Positions 3,571 through 40,931 of a stretch of DNA of 64,000 bases are shown one piece after another (positions within the stretch are counted from its first letter, which is position 1; every line of letters begins with the position of its first letter). Made by a program: the position numbers and the translations under genes. The DNA comes from Comamonas testosteroni. GTDB taxonomy: Bacteria > Pseudomonadota > Gammaproteobacteria > Burkholderiales > Burkholderiaceae_C. The stretch lies in the NCBI RefSeq assembly GCF_014076415.1, contig NZ_CP043568.1, forward strand, positions 3,720,001 to 3,784,000, written 5' to 3'. The notes under the pieces were generated by a model. That model searched no databases. It saw nothing but the letters and a program-made list of their open reading frames with translations, and was not told the origin of the DNA.

Positions 3571-4545
3571 ATGAGCACAAACACCGCCCCCCTGCCCACT
3601 TATGACGATGTCGTGGCTGCTGCCCAGCGCCTGCAGGGCGTAGCCCATCGCACGCCGGTGCTGACCAGCCGCACCATGGACGAACAGCTGGGCGCGCGCC
3701 TGTTCTTCAAATGCGAGAACCTGCAGCGCATAGGCGCTTTCAAGTTTCGCGGCGCCTACAACGCTCTGGCGCAGTTCACGCCCGAGCAGCGCAAGGGCGG
3801 CGCCCTGGCCTTTTCCTCCGGCAACCATGCCCAGGCCATTGCCCAGGCAGCCCAGTTGCTGGACATGCCGGCCCTGATCGTCATGCCCGAGGATGCGCCG
3901 GCTTCCAAGATGGCAGCCACGCGCGGCTATGGCGCCCAGGTCGTCACCTACAACCGCTTCACCGAAGACCGCGAAGCCATCGCCCACAAGCTGGCGACCG
4001 AGCGTGGCATGACGCTGATCCCGCCTTACAACCACCGCGACGTGATCGCCGGTCAGGGCACGGCGGTCAAGGAATTGCTGGAGGAAGTGCCGGATCTGGA
4101 CTATCTGTTTGTCTGCCTGGGCGGCGGCGGTCTGCTCTCCGGCAGTCTGCTGGCCGCCAACGCCCTGGCTCCGCAATGCAAGGTGATCGGCGTCGAGCCC
4201 GAAGCGGGCAACGATGTGCAGCAGTCGCTGCGCGCCGGCCATATCGTCAAGATCGATACGCCGCGCACCATTGCCGACGGTGCCCAGACCCAGGCGCCGG
4301 GCGATCTGACCTTTGCCATCATCCAGCAGCGAGTGAACGAAGTTCTTACCGTCAACGACGAGCAATTGGTCCAGGCCATGCGCTTTTATGCCGAGCGCAT
4401 GAAAATCGTGGTCGAGCCCACGGGATCGCTGTCTCTGGCAGCCGCCATCCACGGCGGTTTGCCGCTCAAGGGCAAGCGCGTGGGCATTGTGATCAGCGGC
4501 GGCAATGTGGATTTAGAGCGTTTTGCCAGCCTGCTGTCCGCGTGA
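3571..4545 (+). CDS. PLP-dependent threonine/serine dehydratase family enzyme
   Basis: A fold-type II PLP enzyme of 324 residues related to biodegradative threonine ammonia-lyase, serine racemase and hydroxyaspartate dehydratase. The Schiff-base lysine is K58 in [12 protein letters not shown]. The substrate loop is SSGNHAQ, the phosphate-binding loop is GGGGLLSG, and the end is [12 protein letters not shown]. There is no C-terminal ACT regulatory domain, so it is not the long biosynthetic IlvA. Expected reaction: deamination of threonine or serine (or a beta-hydroxy amino acid) to a 2-oxoacid. The start at 3571 gives MSTNT; an in-frame ATG at 3538 would add 11 residues. It lies 112 bp upstream of upp on the same strand, perhaps by chance. 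Confidence 0.88.
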
Positions 4546-5425: not shown

Positions 5426-6529
5426 TCAGATCTGTTTCAGCGCCACATTGTTGAGCTTGTCCAGCCGCCCAGGCCAATTGCCCTGCCGGGCCGACTGCAG
5501 CAAGATACGCGTCCAGGCAATCCAGGCATCCCACTGCACGCGCTTGTCCCAGGCATTGCCCCAGGTGCAAAAGCACTGCAACGCACTCTCGGCGGCCCGA
5601 GCGGCCTCGGCGCAGCGGCCCGCGCTCAGGTATAGCTGGGCCAGCACCATCCGCGGCTCGCCCACCCAGGGATTGAGCGCGGCAGCCTGCTCCAGCGTGG
5701 CGGTGGCTGCATCCAGATCGACCAGCGGCTGATCGAGCTGAATCACCGACCAGTACAGCGCTACGGCCGCAGCCTCGTTGCCAGCGCTCAGCAGCTGGCT
5801 GCAGTTCGCAAAAACGGGCGGCAGCGGCAGCTGGGTCTTGAGCGCAGGATGCTGCAGCGCCTGGCCCAGGCCGCTGATCTGGCTGAGCATGCGGCTGCTC
5901 GGGCGCATGGGGCCGGGCCACAGCGACGCCGCCCAGTGCACGGCCTGCTGGCGACTGTGGTCCACGGACGGGAAGCGCGAATAGATGTCTTCCTGCCAGC
6001 TGAACCACTGCTCCATGCTGTCGGCCATGCTGACAATCGCGAACACAGCCACTTCATAGGCGGTGAGTCTGATGGTCTCGCGCGGCTCGGGGCCGTTGCG
6101 CTCCAGCTGCATGCTGCCGTCCGCCGCGATATCGCCAGCCAGCAGTTTTTGCACGAACTGGGTGCGGCTCATGGTGCAGAACAGATAGACCAGATGCTCG
6201 GCCTGCTCACCGATCAGGCGCTTGAGCTGCTCGCGCTCGTTTCCGGCATCGAACTTGACCAGATCGACAAAGGCATTGCCGTAGACACTGTGCAGCAGAC
6301 CCAGCTGCCGCACCTCCCTGGGTTGTTGCCACAGCGCCAGAGAGCGCGCCACGCCTGCCAGATGGTGGCGAAAAGTGCCGGCCTTGTGCCAATCCTGGCC
6401 CACACCGCGCTCCAGCACCACAGGCAGCAGCGGCGCCAGATCGGCATCACGGCTCAGCCATTCCTCGTCCAGCAAGGTCTTGGCGCGCTCGAACAGCGCC
6501 TCATCCAGTTGATTCCAGGGCTGATTCAT
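5426..6529 (-). CDS. DUF6817-like N-terminal domain with C-terminal TPR-like region
   Basis: A cytoplasmic protein of 367 residues. Residues 40-120 contain GTFRHHLAGVARSLALW, GLLHSVYGNAF and EQAEHLVYLFCTMSR, the histidine-containing pattern of the HD-like DUF6817 domain. The C-terminal third (AAAVALYWSVIQLDQP, LEQAAALNPWVGEPRMVLA, RCAEAARAAESALQCF) reads as tetratricopeptide helices. A nucleotide- or phosphate-hydrolase activity is possible from the HD-like histidines, but the function is unknown. The start ATG at 6529 lies 4 bp after the stop of the metQ-like gene, so the two are surely co-transcribed and probably coupled. Confidence 0.75.
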   Translation of the reverse strand: MNQPWNQLDEALFERAKTLLDEEWLSRDADLAPLLPVVLERGVGQDWHKAGTFRHHLAGVARSLALWQQPREVRQLGLLHSVYGNAFVDLVKFDAGNEREQLKRLIGEQAEHLVYLFCTMSRTQFVQKLLAGDIAADGSMQLERNGPEPRETIRLTAYEVAVFAIVSMADSMEQWFSWQEDIYSRFPSVDHSRQQAVHWAASLWPGPMRPSSRMLSQISGLGQALQHPALKTQLPLPPVFANCSQLLSAGNEAAAVALYWSVIQLDQPLVDLDAATATLEQAAALNPWVGEPRMVLAQLYLSAGRCAEAARAAESALQCFCTWGNAWDKRVQWDAWIAWTRILLQSARQGNWPGRLDKLNNVALKQI

Positions 6530-33490: not shown

Positions 33491-33521
33491 CTTATTAATA
33501 AAGCGCAAGCAGCTATCAAAA
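33491..33521. repeat. Intergenic repeat (copy 4), best preserved
   Basis: TTATTAATAAAGCGCAAGCA followed by GCTATCAAAA. It lies next to the rtcR stop codon and shares its word order with the copy at 5381. Confidence 0.6.
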
Positions 33522-35126
33522 TGATTGTTTGAGCTGCTCCCAATTCAAACCAAATTTGTGCAGAAATTTGCGCAGCCGGTCTGCATCGTTGACCACGGCT
33601 TTTTGCTGGCGCGACTGGTCAAACAGTTTGCGACCTGCATCGGACAGCGTGGTCGATGCGCGGCAGACAGTGATGACGGACTGCAGTTGCAAGCGGTCAA
33701 ACAGATCGATCTGGGCGATGGCGTCTTCGGACAGATAGTCGCCCAGATCCACCTCGGCCTTGGGCAGGACATGGCTATGCGCATGCTGCCACAGCCAGTC
33801 CAGGCGCTTGATCTCGGCCTCCACCTGCCTGGTCGTGATGCGACCGCTGTCGGCCAGCGTGGCCAGCCGCGTGATGCTGGCCGCAAGGTCGCGGAAGTTG
33901 CCGCTCCAGGGAGCCTGGGCAGACTTGGCAAACTGCAGATACAGCGCCCTGGCCTCGGCGTTGAAGCGCACGGAGCTGCCGGTCTCGGCCACGGCCCGCA
34001 GCAGCAGGTGGTCGATATTGGGCTCCAGATCCTCGGGGCGCTGTGCCAGGCCCGGCAAGGTATAGGACCAGAGATTGATACGCGCAAACAGGTCTTCGCG
34101 AAAGCGCCCCTCGGCCACATCGACGCGCAGGTCACGGTGAGTGCCAGCTATGAGCTGAAAGTCGCTGCTGACCTCCTTGTCGCTGCCCATGGGGAAAAAG
34201 CGCTTTTCCTCCACGGCCTTGAGCAGCATGGCCTGCTCGTCCAGACCGAGCTCGCCGATCTCGTCGAGAAACAGCACGCCTTCATGCGCGGTGCGCAGCA
34301 GGCCGGCACGGTCTGCCGCCGCCCCGGTGAACGCTCCCTTTCTGTGGCCAAACAAGGTGGAGGCCGCGCCGTCGCCACGCAAGGTTGCGCAGTTGACCTC
34401 GACAAAATCGCCAGCCACCTGGTGGCGCGATTTCTTGAGCTCGAAGATGCGCCGCGCCAGATGCGACTTGCCCGCACCTGTGGGCCCGGTGAAAAGAATC
34501 GGTGCACGCGAGCGAATCGCCACGCGCTCTATCTCTTCAATCAACTGGTTGAACTGCGGGTTGCGCGTGGCAATGCCGTTCTTGAGGAAGTCCAGCGCCT
34601 CGGTCTGGGCCTGATGGAAGCGCTGTGCCAGAGCTTCGTAGCGCGTGAGGTCCAGATCGATCAGGATCATGCTGCCCGGCGAGCCCGCCTGCTGCTTGCG
34701 CGGTGGCGAGGTCTGCAGCAGCACTCCCGGTATCTGGCGCGACTCCACCATCAGGAACATGCAAATCTGCGCCACATGGGTGCCCGTGGTGATGTGTACC
34801 CAGTAATTCTCGCGCTCGGTATCAAAGCGGTAATTACGCGCCCAGTCGTAAAGCGCGGCATACATCTCGCCAAAGTCCCAGGGGTCCTGAACATCGGAGT
34901 CCACCAGATTGACCCGGGTTTCGGGCGAGACATTGGCAATGTCCTGCACCAGGGTCTGCGCCAGCTTGTCGTAGCGGCTGGAGTACAGCAGCTCCAGCCG
35001 GTCTATCACCTGGTCTTCATGCTGCATCAGCGACACCGTAGGCCGCCACTTGCTCCAGCGCCCTGCCCCTTGCCCCGAATCGAGCTGAGTGCCCATGAAA
35101 CCAATCACCACGTTCTTTTTTGACAT
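33516..35126 (-). CDS. rtcR: RtcR, sigma54-dependent regulator of RNA repair
   Basis: A 536-residue bacterial enhancer-binding protein. The N-terminal ~180 residues are the CARF-like RtcR domain (VIGFMGTQLDSGQGAGRWSK, YWVHITTGTHVAQICMFLMV). The AAA+ domain has Walker A GPTGAGKSHLARRI, the sigma54-contact loop GAFTGA, and Walker B LFLDEIGELGL. The C-terminal region provides DNA binding. The CARF-like domain senses an RNA-damage ligand; the AAA+ domain then opens sigma54 promoters. It is divergent from rsr, whose promoter is a perfect -24/-12 site at 35268. Confidence 0.96.
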   Translation of the reverse strand: MSKKNVVIGFMGTQLDSGQGAGRWSKWRPTVSLMQHEDQVIDRLELLYSSRYDKLAQTLVQDIANVSPETRVNLVDSDVQDPWDFGEMYAALYDWARNYRFDTERENYWVHITTGTHVAQICMFLMVESRQIPGVLLQTSPPRKQQAGSPGSMILIDLDLTRYEALAQRFHQAQTEALDFLKNGIATRNPQFNQLIEEIERVAIRSRAPILFTGPTGAGKSHLARRIFELKKSRHQVAGDFVEVNCATLRGDGAASTLFGHRKGAFTGAAADRAGLLRTAHEGVLFLDEIGELGLDEQAMLLKAVEEKRFFPMGSDKEVSSDFQLIAGTHRDLRVDVAEGRFREDLFARINLWSYTLPGLAQRPEDLEPNIDHLLLRAVAETGSSVRFNAEARALYLQFAKSAQAPWSGNFRDLAASITRLATLADSGRITTRQVEAEIKRLDWLWQHAHSHVLPKAEVDLGDYLSEDAIAQIDLFDRLQLQSVITVCRASTTLSDAGRKLFDQSRQQKAVVNDADRLRKFLHKFGLNWEQLKQSF

Positions 35127-35328
35127 ATCTTTCCAGATAAATATCTATCTTTAATTCTAATAATCTTTCAATTCTTCTTCCAACGCATCTGCCACCCAAA
35201 GTAATTGAAATGAAATTTATCCAATTAATTCAATGACTTGAAAATTAACCACTCCACCTTCGAGAAGTTGGCACACCGCTTGCAATAACCAAAGCATCTG
35301 CAAGTTGAATGCAAACAGGAGAAGAAGA
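35127..35328. promoter_or_regulatory. rtcR-rsr divergent regulatory region, AT-rich
   Basis: AT-rich against the surrounding GC-rich genes. AGATA-AA-TATCT at 35135-35146 is a small dyad that could be part of an upstream activator site for RtcR. The sigma54 promoter lies at 35268-35285. The binding sites of RtcR itself cannot be set from this sequence. Confidence 0.5.
35268..35285 (+). promoter_or_regulatory. Sigma54 (-24/-12) promoter of the RNA-repair operon
   Basis: TTGGCAC-N5-TTGCAA matches the RpoN consensus TGGCAC-N5-TTGCW exactly, with GG and GC elements correctly spaced. It lies about 44 bp upstream of the rsr start, opposite an enhancer-binding protein gene, so RtcR control is almost certain. 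Confidence 0.93.
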
Positions 35329-36906
35329 ATGGTCAACACGCAATTGTTTCAAACCAGCCGCGGTGCACTGACTGCAGCCGCCAACACGGTCAATCGGGAA
35401 GGCGCCGCAGCCTATGCCTTGAGCCCCCGCCACCAGTTGGCCCAGATGGCCGTGACCGGCTGCCTGAGCCAGACTTTCTATGCAGGCGACCAGGATCAGC
35501 TGGAGCAGCTGGGCAATCTGGTACTGGAAGTGGACACGCGCTTTGCAGCCCAGACGGCCGTCTATGCCCGCCAACGCGGCTATATGAAGGACATGCCAGC
35601 CACCCTGGCTGCCGCGCTGGCTGTCTGGGATACCGCGCTGCTGAGCCAGGTGTTTGGCCGCGTGATCGACAACGGCAAGATGCTGCGCAACTTTGTGCAG
35701 ATCGTGCGCAGCGGCGCCATGGGTCGCAAGTCCCTGGGCTCGGCACCCAAGAAGCTGGTGCAGAACTGGCTGCTCAATGCGAGCGAGAAGCAGCTGCTCA
35801 GCGCTGCCGTGGGCCAGCAGCCTTCGCTGGCCGATGTGGTGAAGATGGTGCACCCCAAGCCTCAGGAGGCCTGGCGTTCCGCATGGTTTGCCTGGTTGAT
35901 CGGCAAACCGTTTGATGAAGCGCAGCTGCCGCCCATCACCCAGGCTTTCGAGCGCTTCAAGCGCGATGTGGCCCAGGGCCTGTTGAGTGCCGAGCTGCCT
36001 GATGTGCCGTTTCAGATGCTGACCGCACTCGAGCTGAACGCCCAGCAATGGGCGCAGATCGCCCACAGCGGCTCATGGCAGATGGTGCGCCAGAACCTGA
36101 ACACCTTTGCACGCCATGGCGTGTTCGAGATCAAGGGGATGACGGCACTGATCGCCCGCAAGCTGGGAGATGCCGACGCCGTGGCCAGGGCCCGTGCCAT
36201 GCCCTATCAGCTGCTGTCGGCCTACCAGGCTGCCGGTGAGAAGGTACCGGCCCAGGTGCGCGATGCGCTGCAGGACGCCATGGAGCATGCCATTGCCAAT
36301 GTGCCCTGCTTTGCAGGAGCGGTAGTGGTCTGCCCCGATGTATCGGGCTCCATGCACAGCCCTGTGACGGGTTATCGCGCCGGAGCCACCACGGCGGTGC
36401 GCTGCATCGATGTGGCCGGCCTGATGGCCGCCGCCGTGCTGCGCAAGAACAGGACGGCACGCGTGCTGCCCTTCGAGCAGAAGGTGGTGAAGCTGGAACT
36501 CAACGGCCGCGACTCGGTGATGACCAATGCGAGCAAGCTGGCAAAGATCGGCGGCGGCGGCACCAACTGCAGTGCACCACTGAAGCAGCTGGCCGATGAA
36601 AAGGCACGGGTGGATGTGGTGATCATGGTCTCGGACAACGAGTCATGGGTCGATGGTGTGCGCTGCGGTGCCACCGAAACCATGCAGCAGTGGGAGCGCA
36701 TCAAGCAGCACAGCCCCAATGCCCGGCTGGTCTGCATAGACATCCAGCCCTATGGCACGACGCAGGCCATGGAGCGCGACGACATTCTGAATGTCGGCGG
36801 CTTCAGCGATGCGGTATTCGATGTGGTGGCAAGTTTTGCCGAAGGCAGGCTTGGCGCGGAACACTGGGTGGGCGAGATCGAGAAGATCGCTCTCGAGTCC
36901 CAGTGA
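35329..36906 (+). CDS. rsr: Rsr, bacterial Ro60 (TROVE-domain) protein
   Basis: A 525-residue ring-shaped RNA-binding protein. The N-terminal HEAT-like TROVE region (residues about 10-320) includes DTRFAAQTAVYARQRGYMKD and HGVFEIKGMTALIARKLGDA. The C-terminal von Willebrand A-like domain has the MIDAS motif D337-V-S-G-S with VIMVSDNESWVDG later. Ro60 proteins bind misfolded RNAs in the ring and Y RNAs on the outside. AACAGGAGAAG lies before the ATG at 35329. First gene of the sigma54 operon; the Y-RNA array follows directly, which matches the known rsr-Y RNA-rtcBA order of Salmonella. Confidence 0.95.
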   Translation: MVNTQLFQTSRGALTAAANTVNREGAAAYALSPRHQLAQMAVTGCLSQTFYAGDQDQLEQLGNLVLEVDTRFAAQTAVYARQRGYMKDMPATLAAALAVWDTALLSQVFGRVIDNGKMLRNFVQIVRSGAMGRKSLGSAPKKLVQNWLLNASEKQLLSAAVGQQPSLADVVKMVHPKPQEAWRSAWFAWLIGKPFDEAQLPPITQAFERFKRDVAQGLLSAELPDVPFQMLTALELNAQQWAQIAHSGSWQMVRQNLNTFARHGVFEIKGMTALIARKLGDADAVARARAMPYQLLSAYQAAGEKVPAQVRDALQDAMEHAIANVPCFAGAVVVCPDVSGSMHSPVTGYRAGATTAVRCIDVAGLMAAAVLRKNRTARVLPFEQKVVKLELNGRDSVMTNASKLAKIGGGGTNCSAPLKQLADEKARVDVVIMVSDNESWVDGVRCGATETMQQWERIKQHSPNARLVCIDIQPYGTTQAMERDDILNVGGFSDAVFDVVASFAEGRLGAEHWVGEIEKIALESQ

Positions 36907-37052
36907 GAGTTGAAAGCACGGCCCAGCAAACCGAAGGTTTGCGTTTGAGACGAGGCGCGTAGCCGCAGGCAGTACAAAAGTACGACAAGGCTGAGCAACG
37001 ACGTATCAAGGTCCGTGTTAGCAACTCGGAGTTGAAGTGATCATCTGTTGTT
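36907..37052. other. Leader stretch between rsr and the Y-RNA array
   Basis: Holds a perfect hairpin GCAAACC-GAA-GGTTTGC at 36926-36942 just after the rsr stop, and GTAC-AAAA-GTAC at 36973-36984. The segment with GTAGCCGCAGGCAGTACAAA resembles a dispersed Comamonas intergenic repeat, which I recall but cannot verify here. The hairpin could trim or stabilise the 3' end of the rsr message. Confidence 0.4.
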
Positions 37053-37111
37053 GGCGAATGCTGGTGGGACTACATATCCAAACTGTCCCGTCTCACCAAC
37101 CCCTTGTCGCC
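37053..37111 (+). ncRNA. Y RNA-like RNA, unit 1 (short, no tRNA-like module)
   Basis: Outer stem GGCGA/TCGCC (37053-37057 with 37107-37111), a conserved asymmetric internal loop (AUGCU opposite AACCCCUUG), and inner stem GGTGGGAC/GTCTCACC (37063-37070 with 37090-37097) including a G-U wobble. The loop is only about 19 bases. The same stem with compensatory changes is found in the next three units. A form without the tRNA-like part is comparable to Salmonella YrlB. Confidence 0.75.
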
Positions 37112-37154
37112 CGCCGCAGATGTCCTGAATGAAGTTGAACGGTTTGAATGACTG

Positions 37155-37290
37155 GCTGCGAATGCCGGTGGAACTACATGGGTGCCCGGATTGCAGGTTC
37201 GATTCCTGCCCGCCTCGTAGGATCGAAAGATCAACGAGCGGTAGCCAAAGGTACAGCACGGGTTATGTTTCACCCAACCCTTGTCGCAGC
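37155..37290 (+). ncRNA. Y RNA-like RNA, unit 2, with permuted tRNA-like module
   Basis: Outer stem GCTGCGA/TCGCAGC (37155-37161 with 37284-37290), inner stem GGTGGAAC/GTTTCACC (37167-37174 with 37267-37274). Inside, a T arm (GCAGG-TTCGATT-CCTGC, 37193-37209) comes first, then an acceptor-like hairpin closed by GATC-GAAA-GATC, and then a D-arm-like segment with GG in the loop (GTAGCCAAAGGTACAGC). The T arm preceding the D arm is a circular permutation of tRNA order. Confidence 0.8.
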
Positions 37291-37318
37291 AAGACATTCA
37301 TCACCATGGTTTGAGTTT

Positions 37319-37413
37319 GGCGCGAATGCCAGCAGGACTACATCGGTTGCCACGGGTTCGATTCCCAAGCCGGGAAACCGGTCACGGCTATGTCTTGCTT
37401 CTCTGGTCGCGCC
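37319..37413 (+). ncRNA. Y RNA-like RNA, unit 3, short tRNA-like module
   Basis: Outer stem GGCGCGA/TCGCGCC (37319-37325 with 37407-37413), inner stem AGCAGGAC/GTCTTGCT (37331-37338 with 37392-37399). The inner stem differs at several positions from units 1, 2 and 4 but stays paired, so the bases covary. The T loop TTCGATT in GGG/CCC is kept; a clear D arm is not seen, only CCGG-GAAA-CCGG. Six T follow at 37417-37422, so the 3' half-stem may act as a terminator or processing signal. Confidence 0.75.
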
Positions 37414-37471
37414 GCCTTTTTTGAACACGACTTGCGCAAGCGTGAGTCCAAATGAATTATCGGTTTGGCTG

Positions 37472-37606
37472 CCTTGTAGCGAATGCCGGTGGAACTACAG
37501 ACTTTTAATCTCGTGGTCGCGGGTTCGAATCCCGCCAGCAGTTGCAAAGCTGTTGTAGCTCAGACTGGTAGAGCACGATGTTTCACCACCCCTTGTCGCT
37601 GCAGGG
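37472..37606 (+). ncRNA. Y RNA-like RNA, unit 4, near-complete permuted tRNA mimic
   Basis: Outer stem CCTTGTAGCGA/TCGCTGCAGGG (37472-37482 with 37596-37606), inner stem GGTGGAAC/GTTTCACC (37488-37495 with 37580-37587). Then a small hairpin AGA-CTTTTAA-TCT (37499-37511) like a tRNA-Lys anticodon arm, T arm GCGGG-TTCGAAT-CCCGC (37519-37535), a 7-bp acceptor-like stem CAGCAGT/GCTGTTG (37536-37542 with 37549-37555, two G-U pairs) closed by six bases, TA, and D arm GCTC-AGACTGGTA-GAGC (37558-37574). This reads as the 3' half of a tRNA before the 5' half. It is not a normal tRNA gene: it has no free acceptor end. Confidence 0.85.
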
Positions 37607-37729
37607 CAGTCATCCATGACAGGAACAACAAGGAAACGACTTACGCAAAACGGGTTCAGGCAAGACGACTGCCTCAGTCGGCAGTCCGCTGTTGCCTTCC
37701 AGTTTGCGCAAGTTCTAAAGGAAATCAAG

Positions 37730-38956
37730 ATGTCCGAACAGAATTACCAACTGCTGGAAATCGCTGGCGGCGTGCCCGTCAAGATGTGGACCAAGGGCGT
37801 GCCCGTGGAATCCGAGGCCCAGCAGCAACTGGCCAACGCCGCGCGCCTGCCCATTGTCTTCAAACATATCGCCGCCATGCCCGATGTGCACCTGGGCATT
37901 GGTGCCACCATCGGCTCGGTGATTCCCACCGTCAAGGCCATCATCCCTGCGGCCGTCGGGGTGGACATCGGCTGCGGCATGATGGCCGCCAGGACCACGC
38001 TGCGGGCCGAAGACCTGCCCGACAGCCTGGCCACGCTGCGCTCGGCCATTGAAAAGGCCGTGCCCCATGGATCGGCGCCCAAAAGCCGTGGCCGTGACCC
38101 TGGCGCCTGGGAGAACCCTCCCGATCTGGTGGACCAGAAATGGGCCACGCTGGTGGACGAATTCGACGCACTATGCGAGCTGCACCCTCGCCTGGAAAAG
38201 ACCAATAACCGCAAGCACCTGGGAACCCTGGGTAGCGGCAATCACTTTGTGGAAGTGTGCCTGGACGAAGTCGGCTTTGTCTGGTTCATGCTGCACTCGG
38301 GCTCGCGCGGCGTGGGCAATGCCATCGGCAACCATTTCATCGAGCTGGCCAAGAAGGATGCCGAGCTGCACCAGCGCAATCTGCCCGACCGGGACCTGGC
38401 CTACCTTGAAGAAGGAGCCCGCTACTTTGGCGACTATGTGCGCGCCGTGTCCTGGGCCCAGAAGTTCGCCATGAGCAACCGCGAAGTGATGATGGCCAAC
38501 CTGATCGCCACCGTGCGCCAGGTGATTACCAGGCCTTTCGAGTCCCATGTGGAGGCCGTGAACTGCCACCACAACTATGTGCAGAAGGAACATCACTTTG
38601 GCGAGGATGTGTTCGTCACCCGCAAGGGCGCCGTGAGCGCCAAGCGCGGCGAAATGGGCATCATCCCCGGCAGCATGGGCGCGCGCAGCTATATCGTGCG
38701 CGGCCTGGGCAACCCCGAGAGCTTTGAAAGCTGCAGCCACGGCGCGGGCCGCGTAATGAGCCGCACCAAGGCCAAAAAGCTGTACTCGGTGGCTGACCAG
38801 ATCAAAGCCACCGAAGGCGTGGAATGCCGCAAGGACGAGGGCGTGATCGACGAGATCCCCATGGCCTACAAGGACATTGACGCCGTCATGGCCGCCCAGA
38901 AGGACCTGGTGGAAGTGCTCCATACCCTCAAGCAGGTGATCTGCGTCAAGGGCTAG
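37730..38956 (+). CDS. rtcB: RtcB RNA ligase
   Basis: A 408-residue GTP- and Mn-dependent ligase, the same length as the E. coli enzyme. It joins 2',3'-cyclic- or 3'-phosphate ends to 5'-OH ends. The guanylylated histidine is H337 in ESCSHGAGRVMSR, the same number as in E. coli. Metal-site text includes MPDVHLGIGATIGSVI, VGVDIGCGMMAARTTL and GTLGSGNHFVEVCLDEVG. The ATG at 37730 has AAAGGA upstream; the longer frame to 37616 runs back to the Y-RNA array. It follows unit 4 by 123 bp in the RtcR operon. Confidence 0.97.
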   Translation: MSEQNYQLLEIAGGVPVKMWTKGVPVESEAQQQLANAARLPIVFKHIAAMPDVHLGIGATIGSVIPTVKAIIPAAVGVDIGCGMMAARTTLRAEDLPDSLATLRSAIEKAVPHGSAPKSRGRDPGAWENPPDLVDQKWATLVDEFDALCELHPRLEKTNNRKHLGTLGSGNHFVEVCLDEVGFVWFMLHSGSRGVGNAIGNHFIELAKKDAELHQRNLPDRDLAYLEEGARYFGDYVRAVSWAQKFAMSNREVMMANLIATVRQVITRPFESHVEAVNCHHNYVQKEHHFGEDVFVTRKGAVSAKRGEMGIIPGSMGARSYIVRGLGNPESFESCSHGAGRVMSRTKAKKLYSVADQIKATEGVECRKDEGVIDEIPMAYKDIDAVMAAQKDLVEVLHTLKQVICVKG

Positions 38957-39009: not shown

Positions 39010-39858
39010 ATGCAAACCGTTGAACAAGAATTCAAACCCCAAGAGAGCGTGCTGAGCGCACACCCGATATCCGATGCCATGCGCAGTGCCGTGCAAGCCC
39101 AGCTCAAGGCACTCGAACGCGAACACGATGTAAAGGTGCTGTTTGCCTGCGAATCAGGCAGCCGTGGCTGGGGCTTTGCTTCGCCCGACAGCGACTATGA
39201 CGTGCGCTTTGTCTATGTGCCACGCCTGCCCTGGTATTTGCGCACCCGCGCGGGCCGCGATGTGATCGAGCTTCCTGTGAGCGCCGAGCTGGACGTGAGC
39301 GGCTGGGAACTGCGCAAGACGCTGCAGCTGATGCAGGCTTCCAATCCGGTGCTGCTGGAGTGGCTGCGCTCGCCCGTGGTCTATTGCAGCGAGACCGCCT
39401 GGGTCAAGCGCCTGCACGAGCTGGCGCTGCAGAGCTTTTCGCCAGTGCGCGGCTACCACCACTATCTGTCCATGGCGCGCAAGACCATGAAGAGCCACTT
39501 GCGCCCGAAAAGCGAGGTCGTGAAGTACAAAAAATACTTTTACGCGCTGCGCCCGTTGCTAGCCGCACGCTGGATACGCGAGATCGGCGGCGTGCCGCCC
39601 ATGCGCTTTGCCGAGCTGGCGACGGCGCTGCTGCATGATGCCGAACTGCTGAGCGAACTCAATGCCTTGCTGACGGTCAAGATGCGCGCCGGTGAAGCGG
39701 CCACCAGCGCCCCCTGGCCTCGCATACAGGAGTTTCTGCAGACCGAGCTGGCCCTGGCCGAACAATATGCGCCGCAGGCCAAGCCATTGCGCGCCGAAAC
39801 GGTGCAAGCAGCCGATGCGTTTTTGCTGGAGGCCGTTGCGCGCTTCAACACCCAATAA
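39010..39858 (+). CDS. RlaP-type nucleotidyltransferase of the RNA-repair operon
   Basis: A 282-residue protein with the polymerase-beta-type core GSRGWGFASPDSDYDVRFVYV (Gly-Ser plus D-x-D). After it come YLRTRAGRDVIELPVSAELD and a helical C-terminus (RPLLAARWIREIGGVPPMRF). This is the COG3541/YcgL-like group found with RtcB/RtcA and named RlaP in comparative work. A predicted role is end-modification or nucleotidyl transfer to RNA before ligation; the substrate is unknown. It lies between rtcB (53 bp) and rtcA (35 bp), clearly one operon. Confidence 0.85.
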   Translation: MQTVEQEFKPQESVLSAHPISDAMRSAVQAQLKALEREHDVKVLFACESGSRGWGFASPDSDYDVRFVYVPRLPWYLRTRAGRDVIELPVSAELDVSGWELRKTLQLMQASNPVLLEWLRSPVVYCSETAWVKRLHELALQSFSPVRGYHHYLSMARKTMKSHLRPKSEVVKYKKYFYALRPLLAARWIREIGGVPPMRFAELATALLHDAELLSELNALLTVKMRAGEAATSAPWPRIQEFLQTELALAEQYAPQAKPLRAETVQAADAFLLEAVARFNTQ

Positions 39859-39893: not shown

Positions 39894-40931
39894 ATGATAG
39901 AAATCGACGGCTCCCAGGGCGAAGGCGGCGGCCAGATACTGCGCAGCGCCTTGGCCCTGTCCATGTGCACGGGCCAGGCTTTTGCCCTGACCCGGATCCG
40001 CGCGGGCCGCTCCAAGCCGGGGCTGATGCGCCAGCACCTGACCTGCGTTCACGCAGCCATCGAAATCAGCAGCGCCCGGGTGGAAGGTGCAGAGCTGAAT
40101 TCGCAGGCACTGCAGTTCACGCCCGGCACCGTGCACTGCGGCAGCTATGCGTTCAATGTGGGATCGGCCGGCAGTTGCACCCTGGTGCTGCAGACCGTGT
40201 GGCCCGCGCTGATGCTGGCCGCTGGCGAAAGCCGGATCCAGCTCAGGGGCGGCACGCACAACCCCATGGCTCCGCCCTTCCACTTCCTTGAGCGCAGCTA
40301 TGCGCCGCTGCTGCGCCGCCTTGGCGCACCTGTGCAACTGACACTTCAGCGCCACGGCTTCTACCCCGCCGGAGGCGGCGAGTTCAAGGCCGTGATCGGC
40401 GGCGCCAGAGAGGTGCTGACCCCGTTTGACCTCAACGAGCGCGGCAGCGCACTCGAGGCGTATGCGGACTGCCTTGCTCCAGCCCTGCCTTCGTCGATTG
40501 CACGGCGCGAACTCAACAAGCTGGCTGCCCTCATGGACTGGCAACCCGGGCAGCTGCGCCAAGCCGGCGTGCGCCAGAACGAGGGGCCTGGCAATGCGCT
40601 GCTGGGCACGCTGGTGCACGAGCAGGTGACCGAGGTCTTCACCGAATTCGGCGAAAAAGGCGTAACCGCCGAAACCGTGGCCACCCTGCTGGCGCAGGAA
40701 ATGCGCCGCTACCAAAGCAGCGACGGCGCACTGGGCCCACACCTGGCTGACCAGTGGGTGCTGCCGCTGGCGCTGGCCGTGCATTTGCGCGGGCAGCCCG
40801 CCAGCTACAGCTGTACGGAGCTGACGCCCCACGCACTGAGCAATTTCGCGGTGATTCAGCGCTTTCTGCCTGTGCGAATCACGACGAAGGCCGGGGCAAG
40901 TTCCCATCTGGTGCAGATCGCCCCGGGCTGA
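39894..40931 (+). CDS. rtcA: RNA 3'-terminal phosphate cyclase
   Basis: A 345-residue cyclase that converts RNA 3'-phosphates to 2',3'-cyclic phosphates using ATP. N-terminus IEIDGSQGEGGGQILRSALA and RAGRSKPGLMRQHLTCVHAA are classical. The adenylylated histidine is H313 in LTPHALSNFAVIQRFLPV, aligning with His309 of E. coli. It ends the RNA-repair operon. The convergent sir2 gene stops 17 bp away. Confidence 0.96.
   Translation: MIEIDGSQGEGGGQILRSALALSMCTGQAFALTRIRAGRSKPGLMRQHLTCVHAAIEISSARVEGAELNSQALQFTPGTVHCGSYAFNVGSAGSCTLVLQTVWPALMLAAGESRIQLRGGTHNPMAPPFHFLERSYAPLLRRLGAPVQLTLQRHGFYPAGGGEFKAVIGGAREVLTPFDLNERGSALEAYADCLAPALPSSIARRELNKLAALMDWQPGQLRQAGVRQNEGPGNALLGTLVHEQVTEVFTEFGEKGVTAETVATLLAQEMRRYQSSDGALGPHLADQWVLPLALAVHLRGQPASYSCTELTPHALSNFAVIQRFLPVRITTKAGASSHLVQIAPG

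Follow-up and report, generated by a model that had tools for sequence, protein, structure and literature searches.

In Comamonas testosteroni, a Ro60-like protein gene and an RNA-repair ligase gene flank four predicted small non-coding RNAs. What are these RNAs, and why would a single operon carry four of them? We addressed both questions with a 64,000-nucleotide stretch of genomic DNA (hereafter, the window) and with the corresponding loci of other bacteria. The window has the gene order rtcR, sigma-54 site, rsr, Y units, rtcB, rlaP, and rtcA (Table 1), and the nearest named record among those listed is Comamonas testosteroni ATCC 11996 (L006), whose Rsr is 95% identical.

An RNA-repair operon with four Y-RNA-like units

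The product of rtcR, which is divergent from rsr, joins an RtcR regulatory domain to a sigma-54 activator domain. In PMC7790460, 5′ tRNA halves that have been cut in the anticodon loop and carry a cyclic phosphate are described as activating RtcR, which turns the operon on. The exact motif TGGCAC-N5-TTGC occurs once in the window, where 0.59 matches are expected by chance, and 45 of 100 shuffled sequences contain at least one; since chance matches are this common, the position of the site rather than its count is the evidence. A scan for sigma-70 promoters or intrinsic terminators between the Y units returned none. A run of six T's at 37417–37422, two bases past the outer stem of unit 3, could terminate a unit 3 transcript; it is absent from the list produced by the terminator scan, which had a loop limit.

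Table 1. Positions of the genes, the promoter-type site, and the parts of the Y-RNA-like units in the window
Feature	Position	Strand	Basis or remark
rtcR	33516..35126	-	Pfam RtcR 273.8 bits, Sigma54_activat 167.3 bits
Sigma-54 type -24/-12 site, TGGCAC-N5-TTGC	35269..35283	+	45 bases upstream of rsr start
rsr, Ro60 orthologue	35329..36906	+	Pfam vWA_Ro60 78.3 bits and TROVE 25 bits, both above cut-off
Y unit 1, class S (short, without tRNA-like part)	37053..37111	+	Descriptor; class covariation; position of yrlB
Y unit 2, YrlA-like	37155..37290	+	T arm good; acceptor-like hairpin enlarged; D stem mismatched; Rfam YrlA 52.8 bits
Y unit 3, class H (T arm and tetraloop hairpin, without D arm)	37318..37414	+	Class covariation; Rfam YrlA 25.9 bits
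Unit 3 T arm, GGG-UUCGAUU-CCC	37354..37366	+	3 pairs; at least 4 in most relatives
Unit 3 acceptor-like hairpin, GCCGG-GAAA-CCGGU	37369..37382	+	GNRA loop in 33/36 parsed units
Y unit 4, class A (YrlA) with anticodon arm	37469..37609	+	Rfam YrlA 71.0 bits
Unit 4 distal anticodon arm, GA-CUUUUAA-UC (loop 37502-37508)	37500..37510	+	Letters as in the genome's tRNA-Lys(UUU)
Unit 4 proximal anticodon stem, 3′ strand UCG	37511..37513	+	Pairs with 37576-37578
Unit 4 T arm	37519..37535	+	
Unit 4 acceptor stem, loop-closed	37536..37555	+	
Unit 4 D arm	37558..37574	+	
Unit 4 proximal anticodon stem, 5′ strand CGA	37576..37578	+	Y stem inserted between it and 37500 in tRNA order
rtcB RNA ligase	37730..38956	+	Pfam RtcB 427.2 bits
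rlaP-type nucleotidyltransferase	39010..39858	+	Pfam RlaP 303.4 bits
rtcA RNA 3′-phosphate cyclase	39894..40931	+	Pfam RTC 243 bits

Y RNAs are recognized here by their place beside an Rsr/Ro60 orthologue and by a double stem with an asymmetric internal loop. The units lie beside rsr (35329–36906), and all four share such a double stem, consisting of an outer stem, the motif CGAAUGC opposite UUGUCG or UGGUCG, and an inner stem of 8 to 9 pairs. A sequence-only reading of this DNA had proposed a tandem array of four Y-RNA-like RNAs between rsr and rtcB; four units were confirmed at that place, in an array spanning 37053–37609, and the inner stems of units 1 to 4 pair as it had read them (GGTGGGAC/GTCTCACC, GGTGGAAC/GTTTCACC, AGCAGGAC/GTCTTGCT, and GGTGGAAC/GTTTCACC). 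The G–U wobble to which that reading drew attention is indeed present at the fifth inner pair of all four window units, but it is not general for this kind of RNA: among 32 distinct short units, the pair is G–U in 22, U–A in 6, C–G in 2, and A–U and G–C in 1 each.

Chance does not readily produce such structures. A strict descriptor (exact CGAATG, outer and inner stems with minimum lengths of 5 and 7 pairs, and a total length of up to about 200 bases) finds only the four units on the + strand of the window and nothing on the - strand, and on 500 dinucleotide shuffles of 36907–37732 it finds a mean of 0.004 and a maximum of 1. Across related loci, with four genomes entered twice, it yields 161 hits in 38,322 bases of rsr–rtcB gaps versus 0 in 154,554 bases beside the gaps, the latter being rsr 3′ parts and sequence from rtcB on, mostly coding and searched on one strand. 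A looser descriptor adds 2 places in the window on the + strand and 5 on the - strand. Two other identities for the array were rejected. A tRNA gene or tRNA pseudogene cluster is disfavored by the ARAGORN count of 0 tRNAs in the window and by the Y stem in every unit, and a candidate protein, the 136-aa frame at 37148–37558, has no Pfam match.

The units differ in how closely they approach known Y RNAs. Only unit 4 passes the Rfam YrlA model (RF02553, gathering score 69); units 2 and 3 fall under that cut-off, and unit 1 is not matched. Unit 1 also has no match among all Rfam Y families, including RF02565 (YrlB, gathering score 97) up to E = 10, and the YrlB model matches none of the four units. 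Judged by the T arm, acceptor-like hairpin, and D arm of YrlA, unit 4 is complete, unit 2 has a mismatched D stem, and unit 3 is without a D arm. Fold z-scores against shuffles are -4.46 for unit 4, -2.42 for unit 1, -1.90 for unit 2, and -1.57 for unit 3, so that units 2 and 3 fold modestly better than shuffled sequence, and the optimum of unit 2 differs from the Y fold. The mismatched D-like stem of unit 2 (37244–37257, GCCA/CAGC) is present in all five genomes compared within the C. testosteroni group, including this one; in L018 and L048 the same stem is better paired. Taken with the operon position, the relatives, and the covariation described below, the Rfam YrlA match supports the identification of these units as Y-RNA-like RNAs.

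Unit classes and their conservation in relatives

A search for Rsr, in which the genome studied here was counted each time, gave 37 positives among 399 family genomes, 4 among 369 for the class, and 10 among 398 for the phylum; within the genus, YrlA matches of at least 67 bits are present in 9 of 53 genomes. The 37 rsr-bearing family genomes have 2 units per locus in 8 cases, 3 in 5, 4 in 12, 5 in 11, and 6 in 1, in counts that combine descriptor hits, hits of the class-H model R1 up to E = 0.01, and six added hits of the class-S model R2, to the exclusion of weaker hits. The earlier suggestion that four in a row is unusual is therefore wrong, as 24 of these 37 genomes have at least four, and by the unit counts of its relatives the four-unit array is ordinary for its kind. 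Over all 61 distinct loci, 42 have at least four units and one has none, and arrays extend beyond the family to an acidobacterial locus (L014, 5 units), a planctomycete (L015, 3), and the enterobacterial Pragia (L012, 4).

We sorted 173 units by their inserts. Class S (38 units) is short; class H (36) has a T arm and a hairpin without a D arm; class Z (13) has hairpins without a T or D arm; class A (59), to which YrlA belongs, has T and D arms; and 27 are other. Loci of the family keep a near-constant order, (Z)-S-(A)-H-A, and those from other classes of the phylum differ in units and order. The array in the window reads S, A-variant, H, A. These classes and the predicted folds bear out the view that one short unit and three with tRNA-like inserts place different ends on one Ro-type stem. 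At the Rfam gathering score, classes S and H go unmatched in the window, as do both in L057 and class S in L014; with the models built here, unit 1 scores 77.6 bits (R2) and unit 3 scores 94.3 bits (R1), in each case by construction.

Covarying stems, proposed from the four units alone, are supported across relatives in classes S, H, and A. Alignment A1 comprises 33 of the 38 class-S units and A2 comprises 34 of 38 H or H-like units. In class S, 95.3% of the cells are paired, 7 of 14 pairs have changed on both sides, and the covariation is 0.267 versus at most 0.062 when the structure is slid; the corresponding values for class H are 90.5%, 9 of 28, and 0.150 versus at most 0.062. The pairing percentages are partly circular for the Y stem, because the descriptor requires Y-stem pairing. 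Unprompted, RNAalifold recovers the Y stem, the T arm, and the hairpin of class H; it does not give the closing helix, where the alignment is ragged, and the helix closing this three-way junction has weak support (6.33 versus a shuffled mean of 5.22 and maximum of 5.78). The parser for the class-H hairpin required a four-base loop and read 36 of 38 units, of which 33 have a GNRA tetraloop.

In 379 family genomes the class-H model R1 gave 26 matches of at least 75 bits, all 26 beside rsr; most of the matched units are in the model, so the weight of this search rests on there being no strong matches elsewhere. If weaker matches are admitted, the number of genomes with a match is 32, and two of the matched places are not beside rsr but next to an rtcB. 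In genome G277, a second rtcB is accompanied at a contig end by a class-A unit and a class-H fragment (L099, 2420–2603), the full locus lying elsewhere. In L013 the units (3658–3867) lie upstream of rsr, which begins at 4001. Genome G248, in which rsr was not found, has Y-type units on the - strand at 5676–5802 and 6016–6113 of L098, downstream of an rtcB that is 56% identical; a 1330-aa frame without a Pfam match follows. Because these units sit beside rtcB where no rsr was found, not every Y unit need serve Rsr.

In the close relatives, the units also change more slowly than the DNA between them. Unit versus spacer identity is 97 to 99% versus 87% in L021, 92 to 100% versus 89% in L006 and L019, and 91 to 97% versus 81% in L007. 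In L018, the units are 90, 71, 89, and 94% identical against 36% for the spacers, a figure depressed by an extra unit in that locus. L024 and L008 are more distant, and their identities are only 43 to 82% for units 2 to 4, against 78 to 80% for unit 1 and 30 to 43% for the spacers; part of the low identity of L008 is misalignment, because its unit order differs. The better preservation of units than spacers in the four closest relatives argues, at the level of sequence, for selection on the units and not for any one function.

Likeness of unit 4 to a circularly permuted tRNA

As modeled, unit 4 and many of its relatives resemble whole tRNAs in circular permutation, anticodon arm included; this arm of unit 4 had been missed by the sequence-only reading. 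Read in tRNA order from the acceptor loop, unit 4 provides an acceptor stem of 7 pairs, U8–A9, a D arm (GCUC/GAGC, with GG in the loop), A26, the strand CGA (27–29), the Y stem, GA (30–31), the loop CUUUUAA (32–38), UCUCG (39–43), UGGUC (44–48), and the T arm. Thus, four arms with tRNA-type loops are present irrespective of order, and as a linear cloverleaf nothing in the window is called by ARAGORN. The likeness to the genome's tRNA-Lys(UUU) extends to the anticodon-arm letters GACUUUUAAUC, the following stretch UGGUCGCG, and all four arms, and the pattern GACTTTTAATCNNNNGGTC recurs in the genome just once, in the tRNA-Lys(UUU) gene itself. Unlike that tRNA, unit 4 is circularly permuted, has acceptor ends closed by a loop, and has an anticodon stem interrupted by the Y stem.

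Unit 4 resembles YrlA (RF02553) in the Y stem, the T arm, the acceptor-like hairpin, the D arm, and the place before rtcB. In a review (PMC8394870) the tRNA-like domain consists of D, T, and acceptor arms, to which unit 4 adds the anticodon arm. Aligned to Rfam YrlA, the distal anticodon arm of unit 4 shows up as an insert of 13 nt, agacuuuuaaucu, so that the arm lies outside the YrlA model. Two enterobacterial YrlA RNAs (L103 and Pragia) have no 7-nt-loop hairpin of 3 pairs at the anticodon-arm place.

Is the arm a property of the class? Of the 59 class-A units, 37 have the modal 23-nt spacer and were selected irrespective of their loop letters; they are not independent, as this genome and five of its close Comamonas relatives contribute six of them. 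U occupies position 33 in 36 of the 37, and C occupies position 32 in 32; A is present at position 37 in 30 and at position 38 in 27. The pair 31:39 is C–G in 18, A–U in 17, and G–C in 2, and the pair 30:40 is G–C in 34, U–A in 2, and unpaired in 1. The triplet drifts, with A at position 34 in 10 of the 37, and the commonest loop, CUCUUAA, is of the type with a CUU triplet (8 of 37). With the loop letters required, the arm is found in 31 of the 55 class-A units whose T arm was located; 500 shuffles gave 1.5 on average and never more than 6. A letter-free test, which sought a 7-nt-loop hairpin of at least 3 pairs in spacers of 21 to 25 nt, found one in 43 of 44 units (shuffled mean, 21.6; maximum, 31 of 44); this test is weak, and in part of the units the best hairpin is other than the anticodon arm; the position-anchored count over 37 units is the better one.

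Class A and its neighbors were further aligned as two hand-chosen sets of 46 (A3) and 33 (A4) units, the latter selected for an anticodon-like 5′ spacer, with three near-identical Comamonas copies excluded. Over A4, the whole tRNA and Y structure has 99.3% of its cells paired, with 16 of 35 pairs doubly changed and a covariation of 0.275 versus at most 0.059. For the anticodon stem alone, the value is 0.330, and sliding gives at most 0.086; in 3 of the 33 related units, both sides of its outer pair have changed, from G–C to C–G. The anticodon, acceptor, and T helices are not required by the descriptor; because class A was sorted on T- and D-arm letters, the D stem is invariant partly through that selection. 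The drift of the triplet counts against the permuted-tRNA reading, and so does thermodynamic folding: the optimum for the unit 4 core folded alone lacks the anticodon arm and prefers another hairpin, and a longer fold contains the distal hairpin with its base paired differently. On doubled inserts, ARAGORN makes tRNA-like calls for many class-A units, often without a clear anticodon, and we treat these as a lead only.

The Rfam YrlA model is a poor genome-wide counter, giving matches of about 40 bits elsewhere in this genome and in 7 of 14 control genomes. Three overlapping places of this kind in the present genome are tandem tRNA-Lys(CUU) genes, of which there are four (L003, 1474–1924), and the matches bridge adjacent copies: the 3′ half of one tandem tRNA and the 5′ half of the next have the part order of a permuted tRNA. 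As a hint to the origin of the permuted-tRNA units, this arrangement, together with the CUU-type loop that is commonest in class A, is suggestive only. Y units of L057 (3592–3650) and L079 (1068–1202) contain or overlap Rfam tRNA matches that exceed the cut-off, at 31.7 and 33.1 bits, and the class-A unit of L057 is under the YrlA cut-off. Outside the class of this genome, Y units on the - strand of L083 (758–886 and 622–760), L082 (846–971), and L085 (1048–1171) also look as if they hold an entire tRNA with its anticodon arm, in a permutation where the D loop rather than the anticodon stem is opened by the Y stem.

Candidate roles of the array

We consider it probable that the array represents four Rsr-binding Y RNAs within an RtcR/sigma-54-controlled RNA-repair operon, the ends of which tether Rsr to different tRNA-recognizing partners. 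This explanation draws on the gene order, the sigma-54 type site, the predicted folds, the covariation, the conservation of the classes, and the finding that, in the genomes searched, strong class-H matches occur only beside rsr; from these we infer discrete transcripts, Rsr binding, and a division of labor between the ends. Counting against it are the low identities of units 2 to 4 in L024 and L008, the modest folding of units 2 and 3, the folds of unit 4 that omit the anticodon arm or pair its base otherwise, the weak closing helix of class H, the Y units of L098, and the different units and order outside the class of this genome. Cut tRNAs would activate RtcR, and the operon would then co-produce Rsr, the Y RNAs, RtcB, and RtcA. 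All four RNAs would, judging from their anatomy, dock on Rsr through the common Ro-type double stem. Unit 1, with its short loop, could only gate the Rsr ring; unit 3 may mimic the acceptor–T half of a tRNA; and units 2 and 4 may mimic the tRNA body, with unit 4 a putative complete permuted tRNA whose Y stem lies within the 5′ strand of the anticodon stem and whose acceptor ends are joined by a loop. The different ends would tether Rsr to partners such as PNPase and tRNA-modifying or tRNA-cutting enzymes and could thereby sort damaged structured RNAs between decay and repair. More generally, a shared stem with ends made of different tRNA parts suggests a Ro60-like protein that is steerable to several tRNA-recognizing partners.

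Known systems offer partial precedents. PNPase is tethered by Rsr–Y RNA in Deinococcus (PMC7790460) and bound by Rsr and YrlA in Salmonella (PMC9879122), and YrlA is reported to be a substrate of the tRNA-modifying enzymes TruB and DusA (PMC8394870). The Deinococcus RYPER is likewise described as a single RNA with an Rsr end and a partner-enzyme end (PMC7790460 and PMC8394870); the operon studied here differs in having several different ends. Unit 1 recalls YrlB (RF02565), a short Y RNA right after rsr with a GGGAUUACAU-like loop entry, in having the same place and nearly the same size, and differs from it in the lack of any RF02565 match up to E = 10, where an enterobacterial record scores 105.5 bits.

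The anticodon arm of unit 4 invites a different explanation, in which it is a false target for anticodon nucleases: the arm might soak up the enzymes, or a cut arm might mark damage while the RNA stays on Rsr, the cut perhaps leaving a 5′ piece with a cyclic phosphate that feeds RtcR and RtcB. We regard such a decoy or sentinel as rather unlikely, although the unit 4 anticodon loop fits it. That loop is identical to the tRNA-Lys(UUU) loop of the genome, and U33, A37, and A38 are kept in 36, 30, and 27 of the 37 modal-length class-A units. According to PMC7790460, the operon responds to anticodon-loop cleavage of tRNAs, which in several cases falls between two adenines, and competitive inhibition of the nuclease by YrlA was proposed earlier; the same text reports that YrlA is not cut in Salmonella, which is silent on unit 4 either way because the enterobacterial YrlA examined here lacks a 7-nt-loop hairpin of 3 pairs at that place. 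Against a nuclease target, a repeat is inserted in the anticodon-like loop of the second unit in two relatives. An A at position 34 is rare in working bacterial tRNAs, and since 10 of the 37 units have one, the triplet is not tied to real anticodons. The genome itself has no match to PF13166, which we take to be the PrrC/RloC family, above the cut-off (28.3 bits versus 36). We likewise deem unlikely, and speculative, the combined picture of a modular Y-RNA set with graded tRNA mimics in which the complete one, with a working anticodon loop, would be bait on Rsr beside RtcB, cut by or blocking anticodon nucleases and so reporting or buffering tRNA damage.

Two further explanations dispense with separate functions for the four RNAs. 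If the units acted solely in cis, setting the rsr:rtcB ratio through processing or attenuation of the operon mRNA, one would expect them to lie in the same direction between two genes, as they all do, and the six-T run just past unit 3 (37417–37422) would have a place; however, units lie upstream of rsr in L013 and downstream of rtcB, with no rsr found, in L098, the terminator scan gave no terminator-like site, and tRNA-like ends are unnecessary for a cis role, so that we judge this quite improbable. It is very unlikely indeed that repeated duplication of YrlA left units 1 to 3 as degenerate copies without function. The mismatched unit 2 D stem in all five C. testosteroni group genomes, the fall in Rfam YrlA scores from unit 4 through unit 2 to unit 3, and the low conservation of unit 2 in L018 (71%) would suit decay, but classes S and H keep their own sequences and their pairing through double changes across genera, the order of classes is near-constant in the family, and the units change more slowly than the spacers in the four closest relatives.

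For the preferred reading, a set of Y RNAs that tether Rsr to different partners, one docking stem with graded tRNA mimics in one operon makes a natural series of test molecules. The anticodon arm predicts in addition that a Y RNA meets the nucleases whose products induce the operon, a prediction that enterobacterial YrlA, being without the arm, cannot test. A bacterial Y RNA survey by Chen et al. in 2014 reportedly noted some species with more than one, so arrays of several Y RNAs may well have been published before. New here is the anatomy, that is, the recurring unit classes and the anticodon arm of unit 4; the literature searched, short of the primary Y RNA survey and the YrlA structure paper, did not describe an anticodon arm for any Y RNA.

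For the Salmonella operon, only yrlB and yrlA are named in the available parts of PMC7790460 and PMC9879122. Two records filed as phage, OR851267.1 (L103, 925–1033) and OR845705.1 (L104, 1078–1186), which are of enterobacterial type and probably host DNA, have a third Y unit before rtcB, after YrlB (105.5 bits) and YrlA. This unit has a T arm, an acceptor-like hairpin, and another hairpin; it has no Rfam match at the gathering score, and neither E. coli genomes (near) nor plasmids (distant) yield a match to it.

A dispersed repeat of about 120 bases lies right behind rsr (36914–37034) and has 5 matches in the genome, itself and one partial match included, that are 74 to 100% identical. It is missing at that place in L006 and L021, and GAGTTGAA, which flanks it on both sides in the window, is present as a single copy in L006. 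In L022 (1084–1340) and L023 (1086–1335), a repeat akin to it interrupts the second Y unit within its anticodon-like loop, whereas in L024 (1210–1337) the loop of the second unit is uninterrupted.
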